Of a stretch of 64,000 bases of DNA, positions 9,943 to 57,664 are shown one piece after another. Location of the stretch: NCBI GenBank assembly GCA_025449845.1, contig JANWIP010000020.1:1-64000 (forward strand), read 5' to 3'. A program made the position numbers and the translations under genes. Origin of the DNA: Solirubrobacteraceae bacterium (GTDB lineage Bacteria; Actinomycetota; Thermoleophilia; Solirubrobacterales; Solirubrobacteraceae). The stretch's first letter is position 1, and each line of letters starts with the position of its first letter. The notes under the pieces are model-generated. The model saw only the letters and a list, made by a program, of their open reading frames with translations. It ran no database searches and was not told where the DNA came from.

Positions 9943-10033
9943 GGCGGGCAGACTATCGACTGCACACCAGACAACGCGAACTCGGCTGCGCTAACTCGAC
10001 GCCGTGGATTGGGCATGCGCAATCCCGCAAGAG

Positions 10034-10330
10034 CTATCCGGCCAGCGTCAGACATGCTTCGCGCTCGCTTTCCTCGGCGAGGCGCTGCAAGCGCGGGGTG
10101 CGCGCGTCGCGTTGGGCGCAGTGGGTGGGGCAGTACACGCCCCGCACCATTCCGTTGGGCAGCCCATAGCCCAGCCACTCACCGCCGTTCCAGAGGAAGC
10201 GAAAGAACCCCTCGGGCACGCGCCTATCCCGCAGCTCGCGCTGCCACGCTCCTGTGGCCACCTCGGGGGCTATCCGCACCCGACAGTTGCAGTCGCTGCG
10301 GGGGTGGTTTGTCCATACACAGCGCATCAT
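10034..10330 (-). CDS. Small Cys-rich hypothetical protein
   Basis: About 98 residues. I do not recognise it. It contains RCVWTN, DCNCRVRI, an aromatic patch (GFFRFLWNGGEWLGYG) and GVYCPTHCAQRD, so six cysteines and a histidine could form a metal site. The open frame runs upstream through the tRNA-Gln gene to 10585, but that part is tRNA sequence in translation; the ATG pair at 10330/10327 is a more credible start, although no strong Shine-Dalgarno sequence precedes it. It lies between the tRNA and aspS on the same strand. Confidence 0.45.
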   Translation of the reverse strand: MMRCVWTNHPRSDCNCRVRIAPEVATGAWQRELRDRRVPEGFFRFLWNGGEWLGYGLPNGMVRGVYCPTHCAQRDARTPRLQRLAEESEREACLTLAG

Positions 10331-10413
10331 CTCATTTGTTGGGACCCACAAATCGGTCCCAACCGCACGCGCGCTGGACGTCTGTTCGATGTCTCTTTGC
10401 TGTCTACCTGCGA

Positions 10414-10623
10414 TGCGTCCGACGGGGATCGAACCCGTATCTGCGGCTCCAAAGGCCGCTGCTCTTAGGCGCATGAATTCGGCAAAAGCTCTAGGCACCA
10501 CGACCGCGATCGGTACGGGGTCGCCGGCTTGACGCATAAGGATGGTCTCCGGTTGGATGACTCCCGTGGTGCCCTTCCCCCTCACCTACTGACTTCGCCG
10601 TTAACCGGTTGAGCTACGGACGC
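10414..10623 (-). tRNA. tRNA-Gln(UUG) interrupted in the D-loop by 136 nt
   Basis: Reading the minus strand, GCGTCCG (10623-10617), TA, GCTC and AACCGGTTAA form the 5' acceptor strand, D-stem and D-loop. After 136 nt the tRNA resumes at 10464 with GAGC, then anticodon arm GCGGC-CTTTGGA-GCCGC (anticodon TTG), a 4-nt variable loop, T-arm ACGGG-TTCGATC-CCCGT, 3' acceptor CGGACGC and discriminator A (10414). All stems pair perfectly: 7/7 acceptor, 4/4 D, 5/5 anticodon, 5/5 T. The spliced form would be 74 nt, with no encoded CCA. The insertion contains a 9-bp stem (GGCACCACG at 10573-10565 with CGTGGTGCC at 10502-10494). Either an intron or a disrupted gene; the perfect pairing favours function. 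Confidence 0.75.
10465..10600 (-). other. Intervening sequence inside tRNA-Gln
   Basis: 136 nt separate the two tRNA parts. The boundaries are ambiguous by 2 nt because both ends carry AA (10465-10600 or 10467-10602). The piece is too short for a typical group I intron, shows no obvious P7/P3 core to the eye, and has no archaeal bulge-helix-bulge. The 9-bp internal stem encloses about 62 nt. Confidence 0.6.
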
Positions 10624-10653
10624 GCGGGAAAGGCTTGCTGGCGCTGCTTTGGT

Positions 10654-13194
10654 TTACATGGCCTCCTCCGGCGCCGCTTCCGTGGTCACCTCCTCTTCGA
10701 GCGGGGGCTCCGTCGCGACAGTGCCCTCCTCCCCCTCGAGAGTGGCCTCCTCCGCGATGGGAGCCTCCGCGGTGGGCACCTCCTGTGGCCATTCGCTGGT
10801 CGCGAGCAGCGTGGGGTTGCCGGCGAGCGACCATAGCTCCTCGGCGATATGTGGGGTCAGCGGTGCGAGCATCTGGACCAACAACAACAGAGCCGCCACA
10901 ACCGCCTCGCTGTCCTGCGCCCGCGGCTGCTCCCGGCGCTCGCAAGCGCGCTGCTCGAAGTCCTGGATGCGGGTCAGCAACAGCATCGCGTTGTGCGCGG
11001 CGCGCTGCATCTCCAGGCGCTCCAGATCCTCGGTGACCTTCCCCAGCGCGGTCTTGCACCAGTTCACAAGGCGCCGCCGGCGCTTGTCGCTGAGCTCGAT
11101 GCGCGGCTGGCGAACCTCCGCCGGGAGCCCCTCGCCGCTGCTCTCTTCGGCGCCGCTCTCCTCACCAGCCCCGGCAGCCCAAGCCCGCAGCCGCGGCTCC
11201 GCATACCCATAGAGCTTCTTCAGAAACGTCTGGCAGTAGCGAATCGGCTGGTCGTTCCAGTTGAAGATGCGCCCTGGAGAAGCGGCCTGCAATACGGCGA
11301 GGCGCACGGTGTCAGCGCCGACATGCACCACCAGCTCGTTGGGGTCGACAACATTGCCGAGGTGCTTGCTCATCTTGCGCCCCTCCAAGCGAATCATCTG
11401 GTGCATCAAGGCTCGCGAAAATGGCTCGCGCCCGGGCACGGGGGGCAGCGTGTCGAGATCCTGCAGGACCTTGCCGATCAGGCGCTGGTCGAACATATAA
11501 CCCCCGGCGTCGGCTCCCCAGACGATCTGCTTGGCGGGCAGCCAGCGCTTGTATTCAGGGTGATCGAACATGTGCTCGGGCCGGTCCTCGAAAGGCACAC
11601 AGATAGGCATCCACATCCACATGCCATCGACGTGGCAGTCGATCGTGTCTGTCTCACGCCGGGCCTCGCCACCACAGGTGGGACAGACACAGCGCGTGAA
11701 CTCCTCGATCCCCTCCAGCGGATTGCCGGCGCCGGTCACCTGCAGATCCTCAGGCAGGCGCACGGGCAGATCCGCAAAAGGCACGGGCACTACGCCACAG
11801 GCTTTGCAGTGCACGAGCGGGATCGGCGCACCCCAGGCGCGCTGACGGGAGATGGCGAAGTCACGAGCGCGGTAGCGCACCGCGGGCCGCGGCTTGGCCT
11901 CCGAGCGGCTCTCCACCTTCCACGAACTGCCCAGAGCGCCCACCCCTTTTGCGCCGGGCCCAAAGGCCGAGCCCAGGCGCTGGGCGATGCTCTCATCGGT
12001 GGCATCGAGCGCGGGGATGCCGAGCACTGCGGTGGGCCCAAAACGGGCATCCACCAGAGGCGAAATGACGATCGGCAGCGTCCCGGCCACACCGGGCACG
12101 CTGGCGATCGCGCCGGTGGGCACGACGGGCACCTGCTCAAGGTCACGATCGTCGCGGCGCCAGCCGGCCTCGCGCACGCGCGTGAGCTGCTCGGCCACCT
12201 GCGGCTGCTCGGTCCATACGTCGACGAGCGGATGTGCGGGTGAAACCACGATGAAGGCCGCCTGCTCAACCGCATCCGCGTAAGGGGTAAATACGGTAAG
12301 GGGCGTGCCGTCGAACAGGGCGGCGTCCACCTCAACGCCCTCGACGCGTCCGATGACAGCGCGCTGGGCGCCCACGGCCGCCTTGCTCCAGCCCGGCAGC
12401 GTGTCCAACCCGCTCTCATTGTCCTCTACATAGGCCGAGATCCGCATGAACCACTGCGGCAGGCGGCGGAAGCGGACCTCCTCGTGACAGCGCCAGCAGG
12501 TGCCCTCCTCAACCTGCAAGGCAGCCAGCACGGTCTGGCAGGAATCACACCAGCTGACCTGCGCCACGTGCTGGTAGACGAGGCCCTTCTCAAGCATGGC
12601 TAGAAACAACCACTGTGTCCAACGATAGTGGTCGGGCTCGGAGGAGACGAAGCTGCGCTCCCAGTCGCAGGAGTAACCGAGGCGCTCGAACTGCCCCCGC
12701 ATACGCTCCACGCAGCGGGCAACCCACGCCTGCGGTGTCACTTCCCGGCGCACCGCCTCAAGCTCTGCGGGCAGACCAAAGGAATCGAAGCCGAGCGAGA
12801 AAAGGACGGCGTCTCCACGGGCGCGCAAAAAGCGGGCGTAGGCGTCACTGATGGTGTAACTGCGGATATGACCCATATGGGCATCCCCGGAAGTGAAAGG
12901 GCAGCCAGCGAATACGTAGGCGGGCGTGCGTGTGTCCTGTGGCGGCGAAACCGCAAAGGCCCGCTGCGCCAACCACACCGCCTGCCAACGCGCCTCAATC
13001 GCTGCCGGGTCGTAGTCCGAGACAGAGACCGGGGGAGTCAAAAACGAATCTGCGCTACTGGCGCGGGCGTCCTCCTGCTGACTGACACCAGAAGCCGCCT
13101 TCCCGAGCCGATCCGGGGTCCCAGGGGCCTGCACAGGCGCCTCAGCAGGCGCGGGGACGGCGGTAGGGCTTGCAGAATGAGCGGAATTGTTCAT
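10654..13194 (-). CDS. leuS: Leucyl-tRNA synthetase
   Basis: A class I synthetase of about 846 residues. HIGH-like motif FTSGDAHMGHIRSY, catalytic core GFDSFGLPAE, zinc-type cysteines (SWCDSCQTVLAALQVEEGTC), editing domain (CP1) and KMSKS-type RKMSKHLGNVVDPN are in order, followed by the helical anticodon domain (WNDQPIRYCQTFLKKLYGY). The last 40 residues are an acidic, low-complexity tail. The open frame extends to 13341, but the upstream 49 codons have no family similarity; the ATG at 13194 is preferred, while the recognisable enzyme starts only at YDPAAIEARWQ. It charges tRNA-Leu in the cytoplasm. The gene lies 30 bp upstream of the tRNA-Gln gene on the same strand and may be co-transcribed with it. 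Confidence 0.92.
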   Translation of the reverse strand: MNNSAHSASPTAVPAPAEAPVQAPGTPDRLGKAASGVSQQEDARASSADSFLTPPVSVSDYDPAAIEARWQAVWLAQRAFAVSPPQDTRTPAYVFAGCPFTSGDAHMGHIRSYTISDAYARFLRARGDAVLFSLGFDSFGLPAELEAVRREVTPQAWVARCVERMRGQFERLGYSCDWERSFVSSEPDHYRWTQWLFLAMLEKGLVYQHVAQVSWCDSCQTVLAALQVEEGTCWRCHEEVRFRRLPQWFMRISAYVEDNESGLDTLPGWSKAAVGAQRAVIGRVEGVEVDAALFDGTPLTVFTPYADAVEQAAFIVVSPAHPLVDVWTEQPQVAEQLTRVREAGWRRDDRDLEQVPVVPTGAIASVPGVAGTLPIVISPLVDARFGPTAVLGIPALDATDESIAQRLGSAFGPGAKGVGALGSSWKVESRSEAKPRPAVRYRARDFAISRQRAWGAPIPLVHCKACGVVPVPFADLPVRLPEDLQVTGAGNPLEGIEEFTRCVCPTCGGEARRETDTIDCHVDGMWMWMPICVPFEDRPEHMFDHPEYKRWLPAKQIVWGADAGGYMFDQRLIGKVLQDLDTLPPVPGREPFSRALMHQMIRLEGRKMSKHLGNVVDPNELVVHVGADTVRLAVLQAASPGRIFNWNDQPIRYCQTFLKKLYGYAEPRLRAWAAGAGEESGAEESSGEGLPAEVRQPRIELSDKRRRRLVNWCKTALGKVTEDLERLEMQRAAHNAMLLLTRIQDFEQRACERREQPRAQDSEAVVAALLLLVQMLAPLTPHIAEELWSLAGNPTLLATSEWPQEVPTAEAPIAEEATLEGEEGTVATEPPLEEEVTTEAAPEEAM

Positions 13195-13365
13195 GATTGC
13201 GACGCTACCGGATACGTCCGGCGAAGTAAAGAATGATCTAAACACGTCTAATATATTGACGATTGCCCGATGTCCTGCCAGACCCCCCGGCGGTGCCTGC
13301 ACTGGCCGTCGGGGGCGGACATACCCCATCCCCACCAGCACGACATCCAGACGGAGGAGACGCCT

Positions 13366-57458: not shown

Positions 57459-57505
57459 TGGCGAGACCCGGACTCGAACCGGGGACACCACGATTTTCAG
57501 TCGCG
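57459..57505 (-). mobile_element. 3' part of a tRNA-Phe(GAA) gene, probable island attachment site
   Basis: On the minus strand: anticodon stem CGCGA, loop CTGAAAA (anticodon GAA), TCGTG, variable GTGTC, T-arm CCCGG-TTCGAGT-CCGGG, acceptor TCTCGCC and discriminator A. The matching 5' acceptor GGCGAGA and a D-arm are absent upstream. Such 3' tRNA halves are left by integrases at the distal end of islands. Orientation puts the island to the right, with the intact tRNA-Phe expected beyond the window. Confidence 0.65.
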
Positions 57506-57664
57506 TCGGGACCCACTCTCCCGCTCGCTCCAGGTACCCTCGTGGGGGCCTTCCGGGGCATCATGCCGGAGCCCATTCCATAGCCATTTTTGGCTTAGGC
57601 AAGCGGAAATTCACAGCCAACGGACTCTCGGTCGGCGGCCGTCGCGGCCAGCTTCGCTGATAGC

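Follow-up and report, generated by a model that had tools for sequence, protein, structure and literature searches.

A split tRNA gene beside an extra leuS

The window, i.e. the whole stretch of 64,000 nucleotides analysed here, belongs to the genome of a Solirubrobacteraceae bacterium (G000; 3.27 Mb, 36 contigs, 92.6% complete) and carries on its minus strand, from 10623 to 10414, a tRNA gene of 210 nt with 136 extra nucleotides in its D-loop (table 1). Once these 136 nt are taken out, the acceptor (7), D (4), anticodon (5) and T (5) stems consist of standard pairs throughout (21/21), and fold computation brings the 74-nt remainder into a cloverleaf at -32.4 kcal/mol. A preliminary description of the locus was right in recognizing a tRNA with a Gln-type anticodon, UUG in the loop CUUUGGA, as well as a 136-nt insertion that lies in the D-loop and whose removal leaves all four stems perfectly paired. 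ARAGORN does not call this gene, and the Rfam tRNA model RF00005 barely reaches its gathering score (30 versus 29 bits) on the 3' half. A mere chance match to a tRNA seems unlikely, given that the sequence upstream supplies the fitting 7-nt acceptor strand as well as a D-stem strand and the consensus letters of the D-loop.

Table 1. Positions of the split tRNA gene, its parts and the gene upstream of it in the window.
Feature	Position	Strand	Remarks
Armed tRNA(UUG), whole gene with expanded D-loop arm	10414..10623	-	cloverleaf with 21/21 pairs without insert; RF00005 30 bits on 3' half
Acceptor stem, 5' strand	10617..10623	-	partner 10415-10421; A73 is 10414; CCA not encoded
D-stem, 5' strand GCUC	10611..10614	-	partner GAGC at 10461-10464
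D-loop, 5' part AACCGGUUAAC	10600..10610	-	contains family flank GGUNAA plus 1 nt ahead of the arm
Expanded D-loop arm	10468..10599	-	free fold retains 4-bp root; tip about 115 nt larger than in the family
Arm root pairs	G10599-C10468, G10598-C10469, C10597-G10470, G10596-C10471, A10595.G10472, A10594-U10473	-	
Internal 9-bp stem of the insert	10494..10573 (10494-10502 with 10565-10573)	-	whole-insert fold z only -1.44
Anticodon UUG	10450..10452	-	in loop CUUUGGA, 10448-10454
Anticodon-stem 3' strand, 4-nt variable loop AGAU, T-arm ACGGG-UUCGAUC-CCCGU, acceptor 3' strand	10415..10447	-	from sequence and RF00005 alignment
Leucyl-tRNA synthetase gene (leuS)	10654..13341	-	Pfam tRNA-synt_1; ends 30 nt upstream of the window tRNA, same strand

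The base of the insert consists of four G-C pairs (10599-10596 with 10468-10471), followed by an A.G mismatch and an A-U pair; the 9-bp stem that had previously been taken for its closure lies further inside. Compared with shuffled sequences, neither the fold of the insert (20 of 200 shuffles as good) nor that of the whole gene (z -1.59; 13 of 200) is significant. There is no second copy of the insert in the genome, where besides itself only chance-level matches turn up, and no direct repeats longer than 2 nt flank it, as judged by a search for repeats of at least 7 nt and by eye for shorter ones. An Rfam covariance search of 10380-10660 found no group I or group II intron up to E = 5, which agrees with the lack of an intron core noted before. 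The insert as a coding sequence was rejected, the overlapping 183-aa frame matching no Pfam and no PHROGs family. Measured against the identity sets in the available part of PMC9976931, the gene has neither that of tRNA-Gln, with G1-C72 and A73 instead of U1-A72 and G73, nor that of tRNA-Glu, with C11-G24 and C13-G22, although nucleotide 47 is absent. The finding at 10414-10623 is real, does not correspond to any known type of intron and leads to an unusual family of tRNAs.

The neighbouring leuS is an extra and divergent copy, with 45-53% identity to matches in the genus versus 58-71% for the copy on contig C10, which is of the genus type (a comparison that sets apart one locus, L109, with 32% and 34%). 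The flanks of 17 aspS loci from 16 relatives, covering about 0.6-1.5 kb upstream, are free of leuS and of split or armed tRNAs; at the aspS locus L278 an ordinary tRNA-Leu(UAG) is located about 1.2 kb upstream. A simple scan of positions 10000-10800 revealed no promoter-like site, nor did it in shuffled sequences. Elsewhere in the window, a weak tRNA-Phe(GAA)-like sequence lies at 57459-57529 (28.5 bits, below cut-off), with an intact tRNA-Phe being present at C20:67927 of the same genome.

A fifth arm in the D-loop of a family of tRNAs

A second tRNA of the same genome, L014 (C7:57832-57927; L014:1501-1596), is 96 nt long, has the anticodon UUC and features a 7-bp hairpin with one A.G mismatch, which, as read by hand, occupies the same place in the D-loop as the window insert; ARAGORN takes it for a tRNA-Sec with an intron. 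Genomes of the same genus carry the same 96-97-nt gene, in some cases with arm sequences that are quite different and still pair. Among seven distinct sequences from the genus, four of the seven arm pairs are changed on both sides. In an alignment of 17 distinct sequences (A2; eight from the genus, nine viral) this applies to six of the seven pairs, and 91.6% of the arm cells are paired, with row L238, which is one position off in the arm and can form 8 pairs with one mismatch, being counted as partly unpaired. When all partners were slid as a control, pairing over the whole structure dropped from 97.3% to 39-51%. By eye, 10 of the 17 arms end in a UNCG loop. All 17 rows have the flank GGUNAA, yet the constancy of the D-loop flanks and the D-stem is partly built in, because the patterns by which viral and genus rows were partly found demand both. 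The D-stem of the family, GCUC/GAGC, features C11-G24 and C13-G22 instead of U11-A24 and U13-G22, and nucleotide 47 is present in all 17 rows. With a covarying 7-bp hairpin in this place throughout the family, this D-loop position appears to be where an arm, and not an intron, is housed.

With canonical bacterial tRNA-Glu and tRNA-Gln (RF00005) the armed family shares the four stems, the T-loop and the 7-nt anticodon loop, whereas the 7-bp D-loop arm (in the window copy the 136-nt insert) and the D-stem lacking U11-A24 and U13-G22 set it apart. Unusual or enlarged arms tolerated by the ribosome are also found in type II tRNAs, tRNA-Sec and the 8/4 and 9/3 allo-tRNAs described in the accessible part of PMC7609411; in contrast to these, the family has its extra arm in the D-loop and not in the variable region or in altered stem lengths. 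In this part of PMC7609411, which covers tRNA-Sec, selC tRNA-Cys, allo-tRNA, tRNA-Pyl and mitochondrial tRNAs, we found no D-loop-armed tRNA. According to the portion of PMC4033280 at hand, bacterial tRNA genes are surprisingly uniform, with introns at position 37/38 being the only significant exception by then, and the corresponding portion of PMC9897764 deals with tRNA gene fragments, some of them derived from mobile elements. Titles and abstract beginnings in the open-access literature yielded no recognizable D-loop arm in a bacterial tRNA, in a search with poor probe words and many matches to displacement loops.

The covariance model R1 detects the armed tRNA with at least 109 bits in 21 of the 24 genomes of the genus, including that of the window, and the other three are 58-74% complete. 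For the other 122 genomes of the family, the best among the matches listed reaches 71 bits, with ordinary tRNA lengths, and among 396 genomes drawn from the phylum only that of the window passed the strict cut-off. A second model, R2, had matches within the cut-off in 53 of 399 genomes of the class: 17 of the genus and 11 from two genera of another family of the same order (f3) showed the armed form with at least 103 bits (in eight of these 11 it was also read as sequence), and the remaining 25 have tRNAs of ordinary length with at most 77 bits. A pattern scan of genome contigs returned 22 stretches, of which 16 are labelled Solirubrobacteraceae or Solirubrobacterales and the other six Actinobacteria (two), Actinomycetes, Acidimicrobiaceae, Chlamydiae or just bacterium.

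Armed tRNAs also occur on contigs of IMG/VR, whose viral status is the collection's own label. Pattern scans produced five and then 12 contigs (the five included), with armed tRNAs on 11 of the 12 in nine distinct sequences, nine of the 11 having the anticodon UUC and two CCU; the remaining contig, L251, is a chance match. The two CCU-bearing genes (L246:2151-2248 and L248:3503-3600) are identical in sequence. A first viral pattern with three N, spaced incorrectly for the family, found no armed tRNA and was discarded for a two-N version. Phage genomes in INPHARED contain no match to an armed tRNA from a viral contig at E up to 1e-5, nor to the window gene at E up to 0.01. In plasmids the single match is a partial one that covers 52% of the query and falls between tuf and secE in a Legionella record whose table lists no RNA genes. 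Some viral-classed loci are rich in tRNAs, with 15 ARAGORN calls in L237 and 30 in L250; the latter also has an open frame (9978-10700) with a KIDG motif resembling that of RNA ligases. Directly upstream of the armed tRNA, L247 (1003-1125) and L236 (9631-9719) contain tRNA-like sequences with an acceptor and a D-arm and an enlarged, hairpin-bearing anticodon region, which are possibly decoys or debris.

Lone 3' halves of the armed gene were found in L227 (G012 C70), L056 at position 1500 (G014 C50), L263 and L276 (both G693) and L265 (G737). They are likely to be attachment-site remnants, and integrating elements thus seem to use the armed tRNA gene. Since tRNA genes are common integration sites anyway, these copies could speak for a mobile element, i.e. 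a MITE or an IS remnant, having entered an ordinary tRNA gene in the window. However, the single-copy nature of the insert, the lack of terminal repeats or a target duplication and the presence of both tRNA halves make such an element very improbable, and it was rejected.

For annotation the armed tRNA is a trap. ARAGORN, with introns allowed or by default, assigns armed genes to Sec, Gly, Trp, Asp, Tyr, Arg, Pro or Thr or misses them; Glu(UUC) was called for L247 and L260.

Decoding of CAA and GAA

The genome of the window has 48 tRNA matches, 47 of which could be typed, the 48th being the window gene itself. Among them are two for Gln, an ordinary tRNA-Gln(UUG) at C3:110451 and one with the anticodon CUG at C7:28734, so the cell does not depend on the window gene for reading CAA and nothing forces its splicing. 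The earlier proposal of an intron that would have to be spliced if this were the only tRNA for CAA, which had come with the advice to look for a second tRNA-Gln(UUG), is not supported in view of this ordinary gene.

Introns in tRNA genes are not as such exceptional: archaeal tRNA introns can occupy non-canonical sites, the D-loop included, and in bacteria further tRNA genes, besides those named below, also carry group I introns. The latter are likewise insertions into a tRNA gene, for which the part of PMC4033280 available names Leu UAA, fMet and the 37/38 site, whereas the window insert resides in the D-loop, has no group I match and corresponds to covarying short hairpins in relatives. Archaeal non-canonical introns are alike in location, but here the genome is bacterial, and a 7-bp hairpin with a 4-nt loop, as present in the relatives, would leave no room for a bulge-helix-bulge. 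A D-loop intron that some unknown splicing activity in bacteria excises, with ligation of the ends, would explain why removal of 136 nt produces a perfect 74-nt tRNA, and non-canonical archaeal introns (PMC4033280, same part) provide a precedent. Yet the absence of a group I or II match, the dispensability of splicing in this genome and the short arms at the same site, which covary like a lasting helix and have UNCG loops in 10 of 17 cases, render it improbable, and with neither an intron family nor a need in this cell the spliced intron was rejected.

For GAA the situation differs, with L014 being the sole UUC (Glu) tRNA among the typed tRNAs of this genome. In G017, a genome of the same genus that is 97% complete, 44 of the 45 RF00005 matches were typed, the 45th is the armed gene and there is no other UUC. 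G748 of family f3, given as 100% complete, has 48 such matches, one of which is the armed gene; of the 47 others, all extracted, 46 were typed by ARAGORN, none as UUC, and it left untyped L354 (C18:27136-27226), a 91-nt sequence of 49.6 bits with the acceptor GCCCCCA and a different body. Read by hand, L354 has the loop CUUUCGA, i.e. the anticodon UUC, and its D-loop can form a 4-bp hairpin (GGCC-CACA-GGCC), which gives G748 two UUC tRNAs, each with a D-loop hairpin. No UUC tRNA devoid of such a hairpin was seen in these three genomes, for which the tRNA sets were read.

Glu tRNAs with an ordinary body exist in the genus as well, with the anticodon CUC in all 22 loci (of 23) in which it is readable. 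In other genera of the family, ARAGORN calls an ordinary tRNA-Glu(UUC) in 36 of 37 displayed loci, the pattern used having limited sensitivity with matches in 93 of 146 family genomes. The one exception, L213 (near 1500; G083 C13:122770), is an odd UUC tRNA-like gene with an unusual D-region that ARAGORN does not call, in a genome where the pattern also matched a sequence with CTTTCAC, the loop that is typical of tRNA-Glu(UUC) of the ordinary kind.

With reading frames picked by G+C at position 3, GAA/GAG codon counts are 150/775 in the window, 279/3441 in loci of the genus, 90/913 in sister genera and 126/610 in f3 loci. GAA being avoided or recoded was dismissed, as its use is not depressed and is similar to that in sister genera. 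In columns where one of 16 AspRS genes uses GAA, Glu accounts for 53% of the remaining codons, followed by Ala with 13%; in 24 LeuRS genes, Glu also comes first, but with only 24% (D 18%, Q 14%). As a test this is weak, because strictly conserved Glu columns are almost always GAG, with GAA used in 2 cases versus 270 GAG in AspRS and in none versus 151 GAG in LeuRS. Overall, the plain armed tRNA(UUC) looks like the only GAA reader of this cell, and the sequences suggest that it reads GAA as Glu.

Descent and possible fate of the window copy

An important question is whether the window gene, with its different anticodon and much larger insert, belongs to this family. Its insert starts with GGUUAA-C-GGCG and ends with CGCC-U-AAGAGC, which is the geometry of the family, i.e. 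a hairpin rooted between GGUNAA plus 1 nt and 1 nt plus AAGAGC, and the A.G mismatch that comes next is also seen in several members. Taken alone, a root of four G-C pairs says little, being expected by chance in about 2% of cases by our estimate. When the body of the window gene was compared with the 17 armed tRNAs and 45 ordinary tRNAs of the same genome, armed bodies took ranks 1-15 of 62, the best scoring 41.0 (60/73 identical) versus 30.5 for the best ordinary one, tRNA-Lys(UUU). This margin is small for L014 (33.5), and the armed L246 and L249 are exceptions at rank 17 (29.5) and rank 29 (19.5). The gene does not have a 7-bp arm with a short loop, nor does it match the family model over its full length: R2 rejects it, because about 115 nt replace the arm tip, giving 42.6 bits with a wrong 5' half that starts at 10507, in comparison to 95-117 bits for members. 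Unlike the 17 family rows, it lacks nucleotide 47, and its variable loop and T-arm agree by eye in 23 of 24 letters with the ordinary tRNA-Glu(UUC) of G053 (L054); because of this resemblance the gene may be a mosaic.

A search for the same insertion in relatives, as had been recommended, revealed no orthologue of the expanded form among the matches listed by BLAST in 60 other genomes, with at most 12 candidates scored per genome; listed were armed tRNAs and weak matches, and the six weak ones displayed contain no tRNA. IMG/VR patterns with arms of 39-69 or 110-140 nt likewise had 0 matches.

Taking these data together, we consider it fairly probable that the window gene is a diverged accessory paralogue within the five-armed family and that its arm tip has grown by about 115 nt, with the plain form having replaced tRNA-Glu(UUC) and having kept its arm. 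Descent of the window copy from the five-armed family is what its flanks and body point to, and the covarying helix in relatives would fit an arm that is retained in the mature RNA. The balance tips slightly against this particular copy being charged and used, and the data would accommodate a functional giant tRNA as well as one that died recently.

A dead copy, in which unrelated DNA broke up an ordinary or armed tRNA and left a silent or degraded pseudogene, is a less probable alternative, which overlaps with the preferred explanation as to descent from an armed tRNA. It would be in line with the intact Gln tRNAs elsewhere, the lack of an orthologue among the matches listed in relatives, the single-copy insert with its non-significant fold and the adjoining extra leuS, which is not seen beside aspS of relatives. 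On the other hand, all 21 stem pairs have stayed intact despite 11 to 22 mismatches plus gaps between the window body and the 17 armed bodies, there is no target duplication and the insertion sits exactly at the arm site of the family. The recent disruption envisaged in the preliminary description gains from the spare Gln tRNAs and the lack of orthologues among the matches listed, while the undamaged stems speak against it.

Fragmented 23S rRNA is the precedent for intervening sequences that are removed without ligation. Here, RNase III or a similar nuclease might correspondingly cut out the arm and leave a two-piece tRNA held together by the D-stem. The 136-nt insert at a hairpin tip, comparable in size to 23S rRNA intervening sequences, and its perfect 9-bp internal stem would suit such processing; however, its fold is no better than that of many shuffles and the host is a tRNA, and we regard such cleavage as hardly to be expected. 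Rather unlikely, in our view, is a bolder generalization by which bacteria of the order, together with the viruses in which the same tRNA occurs, would read GAA only by five-armed tRNAs with the arm kept, and the window gene would be a working giant whose arm of about 136 nt is either retained on the ribosome or excised without ligation to give a tRNA in two pieces.

Returning to the diverged paralogue as the preferred reading, the arm leaves the D-loop at the 20/20a/20b site, flanked by G19 and A21. This region of a tRNA is exposed, which is why an arm could be kept there, and the armed tRNA would work whole, with the arm projecting from the tRNA elbow. In its plain form, which measures 96 nt, carries a 7-bp arm that often ends in a UNCG loop and has UUC as its anticodon, it appears to have taken over from the ordinary tRNA-Glu(UUC) in the genus and in the f3 genera. 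The window copy, with its anticodon UUG and an arm tip larger by about 115 nt, is superfluous for decoding CAA, and would probably be released by normal end processing from a transcript that we infer it shares with leuS.

What the arm is good for may be related to tRNA identity. In the available part of PMC9976931, bacterial GluRS is described as using U11-A24, U13-G22 and the absence of nucleotide 47, and U20a and G1-C72 as preventing amidation of Asp-tRNA(Asp). The armed tRNA has G1-C72 and an insertion in the D-loop, but lacks the D-stem elements U11-A24 and U13-G22 of GluRS recognition, which tells against the preferred reading; ideas are that the arm serves as an identity flag, U20a being an amidation antideterminant (PMC9976931, same part), or that GluRS is altered. 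Alternatively, and more speculatively, the arm might protect the tRNA from tRNA-cutting defences, with which its carriage by viruses would fit.

If true, a conserved and covarying fifth arm in the D-loop of the GAA reader of whole genera, which is also found on contigs classed as viral, would represent a new tRNA architecture. It raises the question of how a fifth arm can be accommodated by RNase P, GluRS, EF-Tu and the A site of the ribosome.
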